From Streptomyces graminofaciens (GTDB lineage Bacteria; Actinomycetota; Actinomycetes; Streptomycetales; Streptomycetaceae), in the NCBI RefSeq assembly GCF_030294945.1, contig NZ_AP018448.1, forward strand, positions 5,176,001-5,240,000: DNA of 64,000 nt, read 5' to 3'. The stretch's first letter is position 1. The number at the start of each line of letters is the position of its first letter. Shown here piece by piece: positions 16,952 to 23,342 of the stretch. Made by a program: the position numbers and the translations under genes. Below the pieces are notes generated by a model. The model was not told the origin of the DNA, ran no database searches, and worked only from the letters and a program-made list of their open reading frames with translations.

Positions 16952-17437
16952 TCAGCCGCCGGAACAACCAGAAGGTGCACCAGAAGCCGTGGCGGCCCGC
17001 AGGCGGAGCAGGACGGTTCCGATGAGTTTGTCCTCGGGGCAGTAGCCCAGCTGTTTGGAGTCCATCGAGCCCGGCTTCTCGCCCAGGAGGACGAGCATGC
17101 CCGGCGGCACGTGGGTTCCGGGGCATCGGCCGGCCCAGCACGGTACGGGCTCTCCGGCGACGGCGACGATGCGTTTGACGTACCACGAGTCGGACGTGGT
17201 GCCCGTGGGGGAATGCCAGCCGTGCTCGGGGTGGGGTGCGGCGACGACGGCGACCCGGCCCGTGGCGACTCGGTGTCTGCCGCGGAGCATGAGGATCCGG
17301 TCGCCGGGCATGAGCGTCGGCGACATGCTGTATCCGCGGACGGTCACGGCCACCAGCCGCCCACGCGCCAGCAACAGGGCCGCGGCGAGGACGAGGAGTC
17401 CCGCGAGGGCGAGGAGCACCGGGGCCGCGGCGGTCAC
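16952..17437 (-). CDS. S26 family signal peptidase of the Cys-rich peptide cassette
   Basis: Membrane-anchored serine protease of 161 aa with the Ser-Lys dyad. One N-terminal transmembrane segment (PVLLALAGLLVLAAALLLA) is followed by VRGYSMSPTLMPGDRIL (nucleophile Ser in GYSM), YVKRIVAVAGEPV (general-base Lys) and GSMDSKQLGY, the counterpart of the usual DSR box. GTG 17437 overlaps the exporter stop by four bases (GTGA), so it is the last gene of the cassette and translationally coupled. The precursor at 20440 has an AxA site typical of this family. I infer that it removes that leader outside the membrane. It is shorter than a housekeeping LepB, consistent with a dedicated enzyme. Confidence 0.85.
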   Translation of the reverse strand: MTAAAPVLLALAGLLVLAAALLLARGRLVAVTVRGYSMSPTLMPGDRILMLRGRHRVATGRVAVVAAPHPEHGWHSPTGTTSDSWYVKRIVAVAGEPVPCWAGRCPGTHVPPGMLVLLGEKPGSMDSKQLGYCPEDKLIGTVLLRLRAATASGAPSGCSGG

Positions 17438-19266
17438 CGGACGGTCTCCTCGTAGCCTTCGGCCTGCGTGGTGAAGAGCTCGGCGTAGGCGCCTTGGGCG
17501 GTCATGAGCTGTTCGTGGGTGCCTGCCTCGTGCACGGTTCCGTCCGCGATGACGACGATGGCGTCCGCGGCGCGGACGGTGTTGAGGCGGTGGGAGACGA
17601 GGACGCTCGTCGCGCCCTGGCGGAGTGCGGTGAGCCGGTCGTGGACGTGGCGTTCGGCGACCGCGTCGAGGCCGGTGCTGGGTTCGTCGAGGATCATGAG
17701 ATCCCGTTCGGAACGCATCAGGGCCCGGGCGAGCGCGAGGCGCTGCCACTGGCCGCCCGACAGCTGGACGCCAGGGCTGGTGTCTTCCGTGTCGTCGGGG
17801 AAGAACATCCGGCTGAGCATGGTGTCGTACCCCTGTGGGAGGCGGGCGAGGGCGGTGTGGATGTCCGCGTCGGCGGCGGCTGCGTGGATGCGCCCATGGT
17901 CGTGGAGGGAGCCGAGGTCACCGAGGCCGATGTTCTCCCCGGCGGTGAGGTCGTACTCCATCGGGTCCTGGAAGACGACGCTGACCCGTCGGCGCAGCTG
18001 GTCCGCGGGGAAGTCCTTGAGGTCGATGCCGTCCCAGTGGATGCTGCCGCGCTGCGGGTCGTAGAGGCGGCACAGCAGTTTGACGAGGGTGCTCTTGCCG
18101 GCCCCGTTGAGACCGACGATGGCCAGGCTGGTGCCGTGCGGGATGGTCAGGCTGACTCCGCGGAGGATCCACGGTCCGTCGTCGGTGTAGCGGAACCAGA
18201 CGTCCCGGAGTTCGATGCCGTGGCTCAGGGGCGGTGGGGCGATCGGGGCGGCCGGGGCGGGGAGGTCGTCCCGGACCTGGGTGACATGCAGGTAGTGGCT
18301 GAACAGCAGGGCCGTCTGGTGGCTTTGGGCGATGCACCCCACCAGGCCGACGAGCGCCGTCTGCATGCCGGCGAGGGCGGCGACGAGGAGGGACACGTCA
18401 CCGGCGGTGAGGGCGTGGGCGGCGGCCTGGTGCACGCCCCAGACGAGTGCGCCGGTGGAGATGCCGGCTCCGAGGGCGGCGAGGGCCGTCTCGTAGGTGA
18501 CGAGGCGGCGGTCGAGGCGTTCCTCCTGCCGGTTGATGCTGTCGAGATCGGTACGCATGCGTTCGGCGAAGTAGCCGCCGAGGCCGTAGAGGCGGATCTC
18601 TTTCGCCGCTTGGGTGTCGGTGAGGAGCCCTCGGTAGAAGATCTGGCGGCGGGCGAGGCTGCTGGTGCGCCAGAACATGTCCGCGCGATGCCGGCTGTTG
18701 GCCAGGTGGGCGAAGAGGGCCGGAACGGCCGCGACGACGAGGATGCCGGCCAGGGTGGGGCTGATGAGCAGGAGACTTCCCAGGAAGCCCGCCAGGGTGA
18801 GGACTCCCTGGGCGCCCTGGAGTGCCGCGCCGACGAGTCGCTCGGCGCCCTGCGCGCTCTGGATGGCGAGTTGGACGCGGTCGTGGAAGGCGGGCTGTTC
18901 GAGCTTGGACAGACCGCTGAGCCGGTTGACGGCCGTGAGCAGGTCGCTCTGGGCCCGGGTGGAGGTGGCGCGGCGGATGCGGGCGTCGGCGTAGGAGGAG
19001 GTGGCCGACGCGGCGGCGAGAAGGACGGTGAGCAGGCCGATGCCCGCCGCGGCCCAGTTGAGGTCCGAGGCGCGGAAGTCGTCCGCGGTGAGGCTGTCGA
19101 CCACGTACTTGAGCAGCCAGGAGGCGGCCACGGGTGCCGTACCCGCGATGACGACGGTGGCGACGCGGACGGCGAGGGCCCCGGGGCAGGACCGCAGCGT
19201 GAGGGCGAGTACGGCGGTGAGGGACCGCAGGAATTCGGCCGTGCGGGAGGTGGATTGCCCGCTCAT
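17434..19266 (-). CDS. ABC transporter, fused permease and ATPase (peptide exporter)
   Basis: Half-transporter of 610 aa that should work as a homodimer. Residues about 20-320 form the six-helix exporter membrane domain. The ATPase (about 345-600) has Walker A GLNGAGKSTLVKLLC, signature LSGGQWQRLALARAL, Walker B LMILDEPSTGLD and H-loop VLVSHRLNTVRAAD. There is no N-terminal C39 peptidase domain, so leader removal needs another enzyme, which fits the S26 peptidase encoded next. Its ATG 19266 overlaps the redoxin stop by four bases. The substrate is inferred to be the 59-aa Cys-rich peptide because of the operon. Confidence 0.9.
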   Translation of the reverse strand: MSGQSTSRTAEFLRSLTAVLALTLRSCPGALAVRVATVVIAGTAPVAASWLLKYVVDSLTADDFRASDLNWAAAGIGLLTVLLAAASATSSYADARIRRATSTRAQSDLLTAVNRLSGLSKLEQPAFHDRVQLAIQSAQGAERLVGAALQGAQGVLTLAGFLGSLLLISPTLAGILVVAAVPALFAHLANSRHRADMFWRTSSLARRQIFYRGLLTDTQAAKEIRLYGLGGYFAERMRTDLDSINRQEERLDRRLVTYETALAALGAGISTGALVWGVHQAAAHALTAGDVSLLVAALAGMQTALVGLVGCIAQSHQTALLFSHYLHVTQVRDDLPAPAAPIAPPPLSHGIELRDVWFRYTDDGPWILRGVSLTIPHGTSLAIVGLNGAGKSTLVKLLCRLYDPQRGSIHWDGIDLKDFPADQLRRRVSVVFQDPMEYDLTAGENIGLGDLGSLHDHGRIHAAAADADIHTALARLPQGYDTMLSRMFFPDDTEDTSPGVQLSGGQWQRLALARALMRSERDLMILDEPSTGLDAVAERHVHDRLTALRQGATSVLVSHRLNTVRAADAIVVIADGTVHEAGTHEQLMTAQGAYAELFTTQAEGYEETVR

Positions 19267-19817
19267 GCGGTGAGGAGGTTGAGCGTGGGCAGGGAACCTC
19301 GGCCGATGCCTGTCTCCGTGACGGTCCCGTCGGCGTCGAGGAGGACGAAGGTGGGGTGGTGGCGTACGCCGAAGGCGCCGGCGACGGGACCGTTCGGGGG
19401 TTCGGTGGCGGTGAGTTCGGTGAGCGGGCCGACGGCCTCGAGCAGGGGGCCGGCTTCGGGGAGCTGTCCGCTGATGACGGCGACGAGATGCGCGCCTGAC
19501 GGGGTGTTCGCCTCGGTCCAGCGTTGGATCTCGGGGAGGCTCTCCCTGGTGGGCCCGCAGTCGGGACGGAGGAAACAGATGAGGGTGGGACGCCCGGCCA
19601 GGGTGGATTCGCTGACTTCGCCTCGGGGGGTGTGCAAGGTGAAGGCGGGGGTGTGGTCACCTTCGTGCACGGCGAGGGCCGGCGGGCCCGGGGCCTCGGC
19701 GGCCGGGGCGGGGGCGGCCACCGTGGTACGCCAGCGTTTGATCACCGCGAAGGTGAGGAGGGCGTTGACGAGGGTGGCCGCGGCGAGGAGGGCGAGGCCG
19801 GTGATGGCGTAGCTCAC
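19263..19817 (-). CDS. membrane-anchored redoxin lacking the resolving cysteine
   Basis: TlpA/MauD-like thioredoxin-fold protein, 184 aa. One N-terminal membrane helix (about residues 3-28) is followed by a Pro/Ala linker and an extracytoplasmic redoxin domain with PAFTLHTPRGE and HPTFVLLDADG. The active-site region reads ICFLRPDCGPTRESLPEI. Where family members have CxxC, this has Cys-Gly-Pro-Thr, so the second cysteine is absent; another Cys sits six residues earlier. It may act as a monothiol isomerase or depend on a partner. GTG 19817 starts 15 bp after the MauE stop; its own stop overlaps the exporter start. Part of the Cys-rich peptide cassette. Confidence 0.8.
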   Translation of the reverse strand: MSYAITGLALLAAATLVNALLTFAVIKRWRTTVAAPAPAAEAPGPPALAVHEGDHTPAFTLHTPRGEVSESTLAGRPTLICFLRPDCGPTRESLPEIQRWTEANTPSGAHLVAVISGQLPEAGPLLEAVGPLTELTATEPPNGPVAGAFGVRHHPTFVLLDADGTVTETGIGRGSLPTLNLLTA

Positions 19818-19832
19818 TCTGTGGTCGTCCTT

Positions 19833-20366
19833 TCAGCGTTGGCCGGTGCGGGCGGCGAAGAAGAAGGCGAGGTCGTCGGTGAAGACGGCGAACGCGGTGA
19901 GATAGCCGGCGACGGCGACGGCGAGCGCGAGTGCGGGCGCGTTGAGGGGGGTGGCGGTGCCGTGGGTGAGGGCGATGGCACCGCCGAGGAGGGCGAGCAC
20001 GGTGAGTGTGGCGTTGCGGGCGACATGCCAGGGGCCCATGGGCACAGTGGTCCTGCTGCCGAAGCAGGGGCAGCCGGCGGGGCTGCGGCGCCGCATGGTG
20101 GTGACGGCGACGGCGCTGAACGCCGCGCACAGGGCGGCGGCGACGGCCAGGCCCGCGGTGAGCGTCCGGGGCAGGGCGAGGAGCACGGCGGCGAGGAGCT
20201 CGGCCGCGGGCACCAGGACGGCGAGAGCCGGCCGGGCTGCGGCCGGCAGGTAGGTGAAATCGCCCAGTGCCGTGGCGAATCGGCGGCGGTCGCGCAGCTT
20301 GGCGAGGCCGGCCACGGCAAGCACGCAGATCAGGGTCAGGCGGCAGACGAGCAGCAGGTCGGACAA
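19833..20366 (-). CDS. MauE-type redox-associated membrane protein
   Basis: A 177-aa protein with four hydrophobic segments and the family's CxC site in GCPCFGSRTTVPMGPWHVARN, facing the outer side or membrane edge. MauE is required with MauD for disulfide formation in the methylamine dehydrogenase small subunit; relatives pair with redoxins in other clusters. I chose TTG 20366, which has GGAG six bases upstream. The longer frame starting at GTG 20405 begins inside the hairpin at 20403-20434 and has no ribosome-binding site. It lies directly downstream of the Cys-rich peptide gene and upstream of the monothiol redoxin. Electron acceptor unknown. Confidence 0.8.
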   Translation of the reverse strand: MSDLLLVCRLTLICVLAVAGLAKLRDRRRFATALGDFTYLPAAARPALAVLVPAAELLAAVLLALPRTLTAGLAVAAALCAAFSAVAVTTMRRRSPAGCPCFGSRTTVPMGPWHVARNATLTVLALLGGAIALTHGTATPLNAPALALAVAVAGYLTAFAVFTDDLAFFFAARTGQR

Positions 20367-20402
20367 GGGTGACTCCGAGGGAGTGGGTGCTGGGCCGGCG
20401 GG

Positions 20403-20434
20403 CACGGGGCGGGCCGCAAGCGGCCCGCCCCGTG
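20403..20434 (-). terminator. 15-bp perfect hairpin after the Cys-rich peptide gene
   Basis: CACGGGGCGGGCCGC (20403-20417) is perfectly complementary to 20420-20434, with two central bases. It begins five bases after the peptide's stop codon. There is no U-run. As a partial terminator or RNA-stability element it would raise precursor mRNA above that of the downstream processing genes (inference). Confidence 0.8.
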
Positions 20435-20439
20435 GTTGT

Positions 20440-20619
20440 TCAGCAGTAGTCCCAGCTTCCGCAGTTGACCTTGCACGCGCCGGTGTAGCAGCAGCGGCGG
20501 CATCGCTGGCCGCTGGTGCTCCACTCGGTCCAGCAGTCCGGCGGGCAGGCCGCCTGGGCTTCGGCCTTGGGCAGGATTCGCTCGATCAGGCGGCCCGCAC
20601 CGGCCTTGAGTGTGCGCAT
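20440..20619 (-). CDS. Cys-rich exported peptide precursor, 59 aa
   Basis: The small open frame starts at ATG 20619 with AGGAG six bases upstream. Residues 1-23 form a basic leader (MRTLKAGAGRLIERILPKAE, then AQA) that looks amphipathic but has no hydrophobic core, unlike a Sec signal. It ends in AQA followed by Ala-Cys, a fit for S26 cleavage. The core has eight cysteines (positions 25, 29, 40, 43, 44, 49, 53, 59), enough for four disulfides, with Trp at 30, 33 and 56, and Cys as the last residue. Cleavage after Ala24 would leave a 35-residue peptide with Cys at both ends. Neighbours encode two redoxins, MauE, an exporter and a peptidase. I know no named family; bacteriocin or signal roles are possible. 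Confidence 0.85.
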   Translation of the reverse strand: MRTLKAGAGRLIERILPKAEAQAACPPDCWTEWSTSGQRCRRCCYTGACKVNCGSWDYC

Positions 20620-20659
20620 GGTTCTCCTCTTCCTGTGTGGATGGGATGTGCGTACTCCG

Positions 20660-20688
20660 CGGTGCGACCGCGGTCGGCGGTCGCACCG
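20660..20688 (-). terminator. 12-bp hairpin between redoxin and Cys-rich peptide genes
   Basis: GGTGCGACCGC at 20661-20671 pairs perfectly with 20677-20687, extended by one C-G pair, with a 5-nt loop. It follows the redoxin stop (20693) by four bases. Only 40 bases remain before the peptide start, so any separate promoter would have to overlap the hairpin. Confidence 0.75.
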
Positions 20689-20692
20689 GGGT

Positions 20693-21226
20693 TCAGGAGG
20701 CCGCCGGTACCGGTTCGCGGCCGGCGGCGGAGGGAGCGGCGACGACGCCGTCCTGGTAGTTGAGGACCGTGGGGAAGGCGGGGACGCGCAGGGCGCGGAA
20801 CAGTGGTGCCGCCTCGGGCCCCGGTACGACCTCGTCCGCAGGCCCGACGAGTTGGGCGGTCAGGCTGCTCTCGGCGGCTTCGTCGCCCATCACCAGGGCC
20901 AGGGCCCGGCCGCCCGCTGCCCGGGCCCGGTCGGCCCGGTCGGCGAAGTCGGGGAGGCTGTCGGTGCAGGCCGGGCAGTCGTGGGAGAAGACACCCAGCA
21001 GCAGTTCCCCGGAGCGGAAGTCGTCCTGGGTCAGGGTCCGGCCGCTGAGCGCGGTGGCGGTGAAGTCCGGGAGTCCGTCTCCGGGTTGCGGCCCTTGGCT
21101 TGCGAAGTCGTCGCGTCGGCGGACGACTTCGAGTTCCTGCCAGCGGCGCAGGATGACCATGAGCAGGACGAGGTTGAGCAGGGCGACGGCTCCGACGAGC
21201 ACCAGACCGGCAATGACGTACGGCAA
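20693..21226 (-). CDS. membrane-anchored TlpA/MauD-like redoxin with CPAC site
   Basis: A 177-aa protein: N-terminal membrane helix (VIAGLVLVGAVALLNLVLLM), Arg-rich stop-transfer, then an outer thioredoxin-like domain starting at GLPDFTATALSGRTL. The active site is GVFSHDCPACTDSLPDF, a complete CxxC. RVPAFPTVLNYQDG is the cis-Pro region. TTG 21226 has AGGGGGG seven bases upstream; no better start lies in frame. It is the first gene of the cassette operon, and the 11-bp-spaced repeats at 21281-21320 lie 55-94 bp upstream. With MauE it probably oxidises or isomerises cysteines of the exported peptide (inference). Confidence 0.8.
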   Translation of the reverse strand: MPYVIAGLVLVGAVALLNLVLLMVILRRWQELEVVRRRDDFASQGPQPGDGLPDFTATALSGRTLTQDDFRSGELLLGVFSHDCPACTDSLPDFADRADRARAAGGRALALVMGDEAAESSLTAQLVGPADEVVPGPEAAPLFRALRVPAFPTVLNYQDGVVAAPSAAGREPVPAAS

Positions 21227-21280
21227 GTTTCGACCCCCCTGGGCGCGGTTGCACTTGGGAGCAGTGTGAGAGGTGGGGCC

Positions 21281-21320
21281 TGCCAGGAGGATGCCAAGAC
21301 CTTGCCAGGAACATGACGGG
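21281..21320. promoter_or_regulatory. heptamer direct repeats at 11-bp spacing, likely SARP operator
   Basis: TGCCAGG (21281), TGCCAAG (21292) and TGCCAGG (21303) are spaced exactly 11 bp, with a weaker TGACGGG at 21314. SARP activators bind heptamers separated by 4 bp, i.e. 11-bp period, beside a promoter. The divergent neighbour is a SARP. On the minus strand a possible -10 (CACACT, 21263-21268) follows about 12 bp after the repeats. Confidence 0.7.
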
Positions 21321-21329
21321 CTGAGCAAC

Positions 21330-22136
21330 ATGGGCGCCATGCTTGCAACGGGGTCACATTTTCGAGTACTCGGCAGAGTTGAGTGGACGGTCGACGGACG
21401 CCCCAGAGCCATCGGTCGCCGCCGTGAGCGTCTGCTGCTGGGGTTACTCCTGCTGGAGATGGGCCGGCCGCTCCCGATGGACCGGCTGATCGATCTGTTG
21501 TCGGACGAGGACGAACGACCGCGTTCCCGGGCCGACCTGTATGTGGATGTCTGCCGGCTGCGGGCGAGCCTTCGCCGTGGCGGGTGCGACGGGTCGGTGC
21601 GGCTGGTGCGGAGCGGTTCGACGTACACACTGACCGGCGATCCGCAGCTGGTGGATCTGCACCGCTTCACTCAGCTGGTCAACCGGGCTCAGCGGGTCAC
21701 CGAGCCGCAGGAGGTCTCCCGACTCGCCTCGGCCGCCCTGGCCGAGTGGCGGGGGCCGGTGCTGGAGGACGTCGCGACCGAGCGGACACGCCGAGGTGTC
21801 GGCGCCGCTTTCGACGAACTGCTGATGTCGGCGCAACTGCTGCGTGTCGCGGCGGAGTTCAAGCTGGGCAACTACTGGTCGCTCGCGGCGGAGCTCGCAC
21901 GGCTCACCGCGGACCATCCGGAACACGAGATGCTCCTGGCCTTCCGTGCGGCCACGCTCTACGAGTGCGGGCGTCGCGCGGACGCGCTGCGCGTGCTGTC
22001 CTCGGCACGAGCGCGCATGACACGGCGGCTGGGGTTGGATCTGAGCCGCGAGCTGCAGGATCTGCGCGCGGCGATCCTGCGGGACGATCCCGTGGACCGC
22101 GACATCTTCCGCGGTGGCGCCCTGGGCGCCGTGTGA
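21330..22136 (+). CDS. small SARP (winged helix plus BTAD) regulator
   Basis: Transcriptional activator of about 268 aa, the size of small SARPs such as ActII-ORF4. The N-terminal OmpR-type winged helix covers about residues 10-100 (FRVLGRVEWTVDGRPRAIG, RRRERLLLGLLLLEMGRPLP, VRLVRSGSTYTLTGD). The bacterial transcriptional activation domain follows (about 108-255; VDLHRFTQLVNRAQ, ARMTRRLGLDLSRELQDL). No NTPase or TPR region. ATG 21330 or 21339 are both possible starts. It is divergent from the redoxin/peptide/exporter operon and separated from it by about 100 bp containing the repeats at 21281-21320, so it most likely activates that operon. Confidence 0.85.
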   Translation: MGAMLATGSHFRVLGRVEWTVDGRPRAIGRRRERLLLGLLLLEMGRPLPMDRLIDLLSDEDERPRSRADLYVDVCRLRASLRRGGCDGSVRLVRSGSTYTLTGDPQLVDLHRFTQLVNRAQRVTEPQEVSRLASAALAEWRGPVLEDVATERTRRGVGAAFDELLMSAQLLRVAAEFKLGNYWSLAAELARLTADHPEHEMLLAFRAATLYECGRRADALRVLSSARARMTRRLGLDLSRELQDLRAAILRDDPVDRDIFRGGALGAV

Positions 22137-22172
22137 TGCACGGCCGCATCCCCACCGACCCGGCACGGTAAG

Positions 22173-22210
22173 CAGCAGGGGTCCGACTCCGCAGAGCCGG
22201 ACCCCTGCTG
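22173..22210. terminator. bidirectional terminator hairpin
   Basis: CAGCAGGGGTCCG (22173-22185) pairs with 22198-22210, a 13-bp perfect stem with a 12-nt loop. It sits between the convergent SARP and ychF genes. Confidence 0.8.
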
Positions 22211-22253
22211 ACCTGCATGTTTCCAGATCAGCGATGTGGTGCCACGTCACCCG

Positions 22254-23342
<1,089 letters not shown>

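Follow-up and report, generated by a model that had tools for sequence, protein, structure and literature searches.

The question raised by seven adjoining genes at positions 16952 to 22136 of a 64,000-nucleotide stretch of the 11.6 Mb genome of Streptomyces graminofaciens (C1:5176001-5240000; the whole of this stretch is called the window below) is what is made from a small open reading frame (ORF) with eight cysteine codons that lies among them. A sequence-only reading of the window had described six genes on one strand and an adjoining divergent SARP gene. All seven ORFs are indeed present and their domain matches agree with this description (S26; ABC without a peptidase domain; Redoxin/AhpC-TSA twice; MauE; BTAD/SARP). 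On the minus strand the order of transcription is RedA, precursor, MauE, RedB, ABC exporter and S26 peptidase, and the SARP gene is divergent from RedA. We consider it likely, judging from the sequences, that this SARP-linked operon makes a secreted peptide of 35-36 residues with four disulfides via a route of MauE and redoxin, ABC exporter and S26 peptidase.

The precursor gene and the class to which it belongs

The small ORF (20440-20619, minus strand) encodes 59 aa with 8 Cys and has an AGGAG ribosome site. A scan of genome contigs with the 59-aa sequence gave nine loci (L002-L010), eight of which contain the complete order RedA-precursor-MauE-RedB-ABC-S26; these belong to five Streptomyces, Embleya scabrispora, Yinghuangia soli and Y. 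seranimata, and their precursors are 78-90% identical to the window peptide and keep the eight Cys. The ninth locus, L010, has a precursor of 31% identity together with one redoxin, ABC and S26 (L010:2904-6218). The dN/dS ratio of the precursor is 0.31 overall, 0.075 for the leader and 0.46 for the core (45 pairs, 10 sequences), i.e., the precursor is under purifying selection. Since the precursor and its operon are kept in eight of the nine loci and dN/dS is low, the small ORF is real, beyond chance. A lack of conservation of this ORF had been set beforehand as what would refute the sequence-only reading; the ORF was instead found kept with the whole operon in those eight loci. A search of 5.8 billion proteins with the precursor returned eight relatives, all named hypothetical or uncharacterized, and a sequence search of the PDB gave no match.

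Judging from an A-x-A motif, the border between leader (residues 1-23, 20551-20619) and core (residues 24-59, 20443-20550; both on the minus strand) is predicted to lie directly after A-Q-A, with which the leader ends. Reading through the leader, MRTLKAGAGRLIERILPKAEAQA, one meets no hydrophobic stretch of any length; a Sec-exported disulfide peptide was rejected because a hydrophobic signal-peptide core is missing from it. Three short strands occur in the confident core of the AF2 model of the precursor. Yinghuangia seranimata carries two tandem precursors, 80-81% identical to the window peptide (L009:8001-8407).

Downstream of the precursor lie the genes for the ABC exporter (17434-19266, minus strand, 610 aa, fused membrane and ATPase domains) and the S26, signal-peptidase-like, peptidase (16952-17437, minus strand, 161 aa), both assigned by domain match. 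The overlaps of 4 bp that had been described for the last three genes exist at RedB/ABC and at ABC/S26. The exporter has, as had been stated, no peptidase domain, specifically no C39; only ABC_tran, ABC_membrane and other ATPase-type matches were obtained (E 0.01). The MauE protein matches PF07291 with 93.7 bits (cut-off 27) and is the sole match in the genome at E 0.001.

Of 392 genomes of the same genus, 213 have a PF07291 match over the cut-off; the genus was judged to be Streptomyces from named close matches and from a precursor in it that is 98% identical to a Streptomyces klenkii protein. Around the MauE places with the highest scores, 80 regions, each no longer than 20 kb, were examined; the window's own region and a second copy in G137 were excluded. 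Regions with an ABC exporter scoring >500 bits against the window-family profile were called modules, and the counts that follow are lower bounds for the sampled regions. The class exporter was present in 61 of the 80 regions, with an S26 match in the region for 59 of these. The search that had been proposed earlier, for MauE with S26, ABC and a small Cys-rich ORF, was thereby carried out, and a leader-bearing, Cys-rich small ORF was found at most 6 kb from the exporter in 55 of the 61 modules. The leader pattern used reads hydrophobic-x-x-hydrophobic-[VLIA]-[PR]-x-x-x-A-x-A, with A or G as final residue in the final scan. It matched once in the 64-kb window (the precursor itself), 4 times in 1.14 Mb of reversed module DNA vs 61 times in the forward direction, and twice in the 19 non-module loci, in what look like a fragmented module (L100) and a module cut by the contig end (L113). 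The former (L100:9470-12808) holds MauE, a redoxin, S26 and a precursor, with an exporter that seems to be present only in separate fragments.

Precursor similarity alone, searched in 61 family genomes, gave 14 places; the 10 loci fetched represent nine neighbourhoods, one being the window itself and another the module already known from G013. Within 1.5-kb flanks, all nine have a redoxin and eight have MauE. Two tandem precursors in L044 (L044:9240-9628) and three in L076 (L076:9141-9733) precede MauE and have related 6-Cys cores, which suggests diversification by duplication. A CWQC motif recurs in otherwise different cores (e.g., L046, L058, L059, L090, and L116). From these sequences, the window cassette is seen as one branch of a large class with a shared leader and variable Cys-rich cores. 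Among 396 genomes of the phylum, the MauE alignment found a match in 83; at 28 loci from other genera, flanks reaching 1.5 kb at most held neither the class exporter nor S26, so the class is unproven outside Streptomycetaceae. The ABC alignment matched 2 of the 396 genomes, a figure that is not a distribution, with three candidates scored of ~90-320 per genome.

Cysteine parity, redox proteins and membrane side

In 55 distinct cores, for which at least 4 Cys were required, the number of Cys is 4 (2 cores), 6 (23), 7 (1), 8 (16), or 10 (13), i.e., even in 54 of 55. By similarity cluster it is even in 39/40, down to 22/23 at the loosest clustering, which corresponds to binomial probabilities of 4e-11 to 3e-6 if the clusters are independent. 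Even Cys counts combined with free spacing are what disulfides would predict, since metal sites or thioethers would not need parity; the counts thus argue for products in which all Cys are in disulfides.

The genes flanking the precursor would supply the redox chemistry. RedA (20693-21226, minus strand, 177 aa, TTG start; ORF, domain match and alignment) is a redoxin with a transmembrane (TM) anchor and a CPAC site. The MauE-family membrane protein, with a CPC motif, most likely starts at TTG 20366 (19833-20366, minus strand, 177 aa), the start in the ORF list being GTG 20405. RedB (19263-19817, minus strand, 184 aa; domain match and alignment) is also a TM-anchored redoxin. Two redoxins had been announced, the first as a CxxC protein; RedA has such a site, whereas RedB has a monothiol CGPT site. 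In a domain-trimmed alignment of 71 loci (window, L002-L010, and the 61 modules) a redoxin occurs in 71/71, and the C-x-C of MauE is kept in 70/70 sequences, as is one residue each of Lys, Glu, Gly, and Arg. Of the 86 redoxin rows, all have the first Cys and 73 the second; the 13 rows without the latter are window-family RedB proteins (window, L002-L009, L043, L070, L071, and L073). Nine aligned RedB sites read CGPT or CGPS (the latter in L009), and the RedA site is CP[AS]C in the window and the eight close loci. With only one Cys in its thioredoxin fold and a dithiol redoxin beside it, RedB may act as an isomerase or in capture. Elsewhere in the phylum, one continuous frame encodes MauE together with one redoxin domain or two (L131, L133, and L146), which supports a direct partnership of MauE and redoxin.

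On the basis of these data the following route can be proposed. The SARP probably binds heptamers with an 11-bp period between RedA and the SARP gene, and would so switch the operon on. The conserved leader, lacking a Sec-type hydrophobic core, would be recognised by the machinery. The MauE-redoxin pair would form the disulfides by handing electrons of the core Cys on to the membrane, a role to which we are led because the C-x-C and the redoxin Cys are invariant and the Cys counts are even. RedB, with its one Cys, probably shuffles or captures mixed disulfides alongside the dithiol RedA. From the motif and the linkage of the genes, the peptide would leave via the ABC protein and S26 would cut after A-x-A. 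For the product, a role in antagonism or in signalling is most likely.

Several observations weigh against this reading. The leader pattern behind the count of 55 modules was written after reading candidates and is hence in-sample; six of the 61 modules have no leader-bearing Cys-rich ORF, in five of the other 55 (L047, L051, L092, L101, and L114) the small ORF is on the strand opposite MauE, and, given the 4 matches in reversed DNA, 2-3 of the matches within 6 kb may be due to chance. MauE occurs in 70 of the 71 loci, a figure that is inflated and not independent for the 61 modules, because these were picked via MauE. The exception is L010, where a MauE match is absent from the 10.4-kb contig, and at L166 precursor, redoxin, and ABC occur without MauE nearby; MauE may therefore be dispensable or supplied from elsewhere. 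One core (L050) has an odd number of Cys, i.e., seven, and a database variant of the window family (P0003) is three residues shorter with 7 Cys. The AF2 model has a modest mean pLDDT of 69.6, residues 31-59 being in blocks of 84-88, and Foldseek gave no match to it at E 0.001 or better. In favor of the reading, no recognisable family besides the cassette genes and regulators occurs in at least 5 of the 61 modules, the comparison covering families present in five or more.

The side of the membrane on which oxidation would occur divides the readings most closely. According to the positive-inside rule, basic residues flank a TM segment on its cytoplasmic side. None of the 84 redoxins analysed (of 86 rows, with start codons chosen by script) has a Lys or Arg before the TM segment, and a mean of 3.3 is found in the next 12 residues, by which rule they look inverted relative to DsbA/ResA. 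The CxC loop of MauE has ~5 Lys/Arg and 0.3 acidic residues per sequence, and loops 2 and 4 have <0.5 Lys/Arg. As controls, the four housekeeping-type signal peptidases that this genome encodes side by side are basic before the TM segment (two strongly, two weakly), two ResA-like lipoproteins are basic before the signal core, and the VKOR Cys loop (15 rows, one in a wrong frame) has more acidic than basic residues. The charge of the CxC loop is also seen in 24 of 25 motif-bearing MauE-like proteins elsewhere in the phylum (28 loci), so either the whole MauE family faces inward or the positive-inside rule fails for MauE. The redoxins and the MauE CxC loop may thus be on the cytoplasmic side, with oxidation before export. 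We tentatively propose, as a possibility that falls somewhat short of probable, that MauE and tethered redoxins form disulfides at the cytoplasmic face and that the hypervariable peptides of a large Streptomyces class are oxidised and fold before ABC export, with a dithiol/monothiol pair in the cassette studied here.

Oxidation outside is a strong contender, to which we attach a likelihood just short of even: the ABC protein would export the reduced precursor, MauE and redoxin would act in a DsbB/DsbA-like way on the outer face, and S26 would trim there. The outer face is where housekeeping signal peptidases and enzymes of the DsbA/DsbB type work, A-x-A is the usual site of signal peptidase I, and MauE and MauD are usually described as periplasmic, all of which count for an outer location. 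The charge of S26 leaves room for it, being ambiguous with regard to orientation (51 of 65 inward-like, 3 equal, and 11 outward-like), whereas that of the redoxins and the MauE CxC loop is inward-like and unlike the outside-type controls (signal peptidases, ResA-like proteins, and VKOR). Weighing charge, which favors the cytoplasm, against precedent, which favors the outer face, we regard the two locations of the redox steps as about even.

Small Cys-rich peptides can also bind metal, and some ribosomally synthesized and post-translationally modified peptides (RiPPs) link Cys to other residues, so that the product could be a metallophore or a C-S-linked RiPP. This seems improbable: tailoring domains, radical SAM and lanthionine synthetase included, are missing from the seven proteins and no tailoring family was recognised in at least 5 of the 61 modules, the number of Cys is nearly always even with free spacing, and a redoxin accompanies every aligned locus. 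That the cassette matures another secreted protein, with the small ORF as a helper, is the least probable reading, for which the involvement of MauE/MauD in methylamine dehydrogenase maturation, mentioned in the main text of the decRiPPter study (PMC7794033), could be cited, and against which stand the very diverse cores (40 clusters), the duplication of precursors in L009, L044, and L076, as for a product, the failure of RedB to match the MauD model and the lack of a second conserved substrate gene among the families recognised in at least five modules.

Regulation and surroundings of the cassette

The SARP gene (21330-22136, plus strand, BTAD domain) has a frame open from GTG 21273; we prefer ATG 21330 as its likely start, because GTG 21273 would place the putative SARP box within the gene. 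This box, found by scoring repeats across loci, consists of the heptamers CCTGGCA, CTTGGCA, and CCTGGCA, one every 11 bp (21281-21309, minus strand), between RedA and SARP. A heptamer repeat with an 11-bp period is the usual form of a SARP site. The repeat has 2 mismatches summed over the three pairs, a score that none of 2000 base shuffles reached. Ten promoters were compared: the element is kept (scores 2-7) in the seven that have a SARP gene, and the three without this gene score 10-11; the SARP linkage proposed in the sequence-only reading is thus borne out by a divergent SARP gene and a putative box in seven of 10. The third heptamer alone is degenerate in L002, L006, and L008, and both the second and the third are in L003 and L005. 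In the 170 bp upstream of RedA, the promoters without SARP (L004, L007, and L009) have another element in common, CGTCTCGCATTYTGGATAGTC, which is perhaps the site of another regulator. In the wider class, a SARP-like gene occurs at most 5 kb from the exporter in 25 of the 61 modules vs 3 of the 19 non-module loci (anywhere in the locus), and AraC-like genes occur in 11 of the 71 loci.

The region had also been described as an inserted cassette. All 12 relatives of the same genus that were compared lose the match around ychF at 22147-22258 and have no cassette gene in the ~1.5 kb seen beside ychF, which agrees with this description; on the other hand, in L006 the cassette lies 2.8 kb from ychF, which, with two further genes, is common to L006 and the window. 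The flanks of the eight close loci mostly differ. A gene beyond SARP is common to L003:4026-5330, L005:4375-5718, and L008:5157-6461 and has a partial DUF3604/PHP match (L003 examined). The arrangement fits an accessory cassette, which may have moved.

Relation to known systems and meaning

The mau operon combines a MauE domain, a partner redoxin, and a substrate with many disulfides. The cassette resembles it in these three respects (partly PMC7794033), and differs in that its substrate would be a 59-aa peptide and an ABC exporter and S26 are added. No MauA, MauB, MauG, or other mau domain was found among the seven cassette proteins, the genome at large not having been searched. RedB scores 17.5 bits against TIGR02661 (cut-off 188.6) and RedA gives no match; a methylamine dehydrogenase maturation system was rejected because there is no MauD equivalog partner.

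Disulfide bacteriocins, such as the pediocin-like ones and sublancin, likewise comprise a small secreted peptide, a dedicated ABC exporter, and a dedicated redox helper. The window cassette is alike in all three, whereas it has no double-glycine leader and no C39, uses A-x-A and S26 instead, and has MauE in the place of a DsbB-like oxidase. A C39 double-glycine bacteriocin was rejected, as the exporter has no C39 domain and the leader ends in A-Q-A and not in GG or GA. An enzyme-modified RiPP (lanthipeptide, lasso peptide, thiopeptide, or sactipeptide) was rejected as well, since the seven proteins contain no synthetase of these classes and no radical SAM protein.

The system had been called undescribed, which is only partly correct. 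The decRiPPter study had already flagged this kind of cluster, as its main text describes three candidate RiPP families in Streptomyces with mauE homologs, one of them also with mauD (Streptomyces sp. 2112.3, S. viridosporus T7A, and Streptomyces sp. CS081A; PMC7794033). According to that text their predicted precursors have at least 8 Cys, and the families are unnamed and at candidate level only, without tests; the filter used implies a transporter, a peptidase, and a regulator in the cluster (PMC7794033). The words SARP, redox, and signal peptidase are absent from the main text (PMC7794033). Likened by this description, the families and the window agree in a mauE beside the precursor, at least 8 Cys, and ABC, S26, and SARP. 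Beyond decRiPPter, our literature search, in which subscription papers and preprints were thinly covered, gave no description or later characterisation. As far as these searches show, the unified class, the leader rule, the Cys parity, the SARP box, the monothiol RedB, and the prediction of topology are added here.

The genus is the source of many antibiotics, and a searchable rule, i.e., a P-x3-A-x-A leader, an even Cys count, and MauE-redoxin-ABC-S26, would give access to a large reservoir of unexplored disulfide-rich peptides. That the leader is conserved and the core free points to a production line able to accept many cores, which may be useful for making disulfide peptides. In a small system such as this cassette the function of MauE and its orientation in the membrane are directly testable. 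If oxidation before export is true, this would be a dedicated disulfide pathway inside the reducing cytoplasm, and could extend to the maturation of methylamine dehydrogenase.

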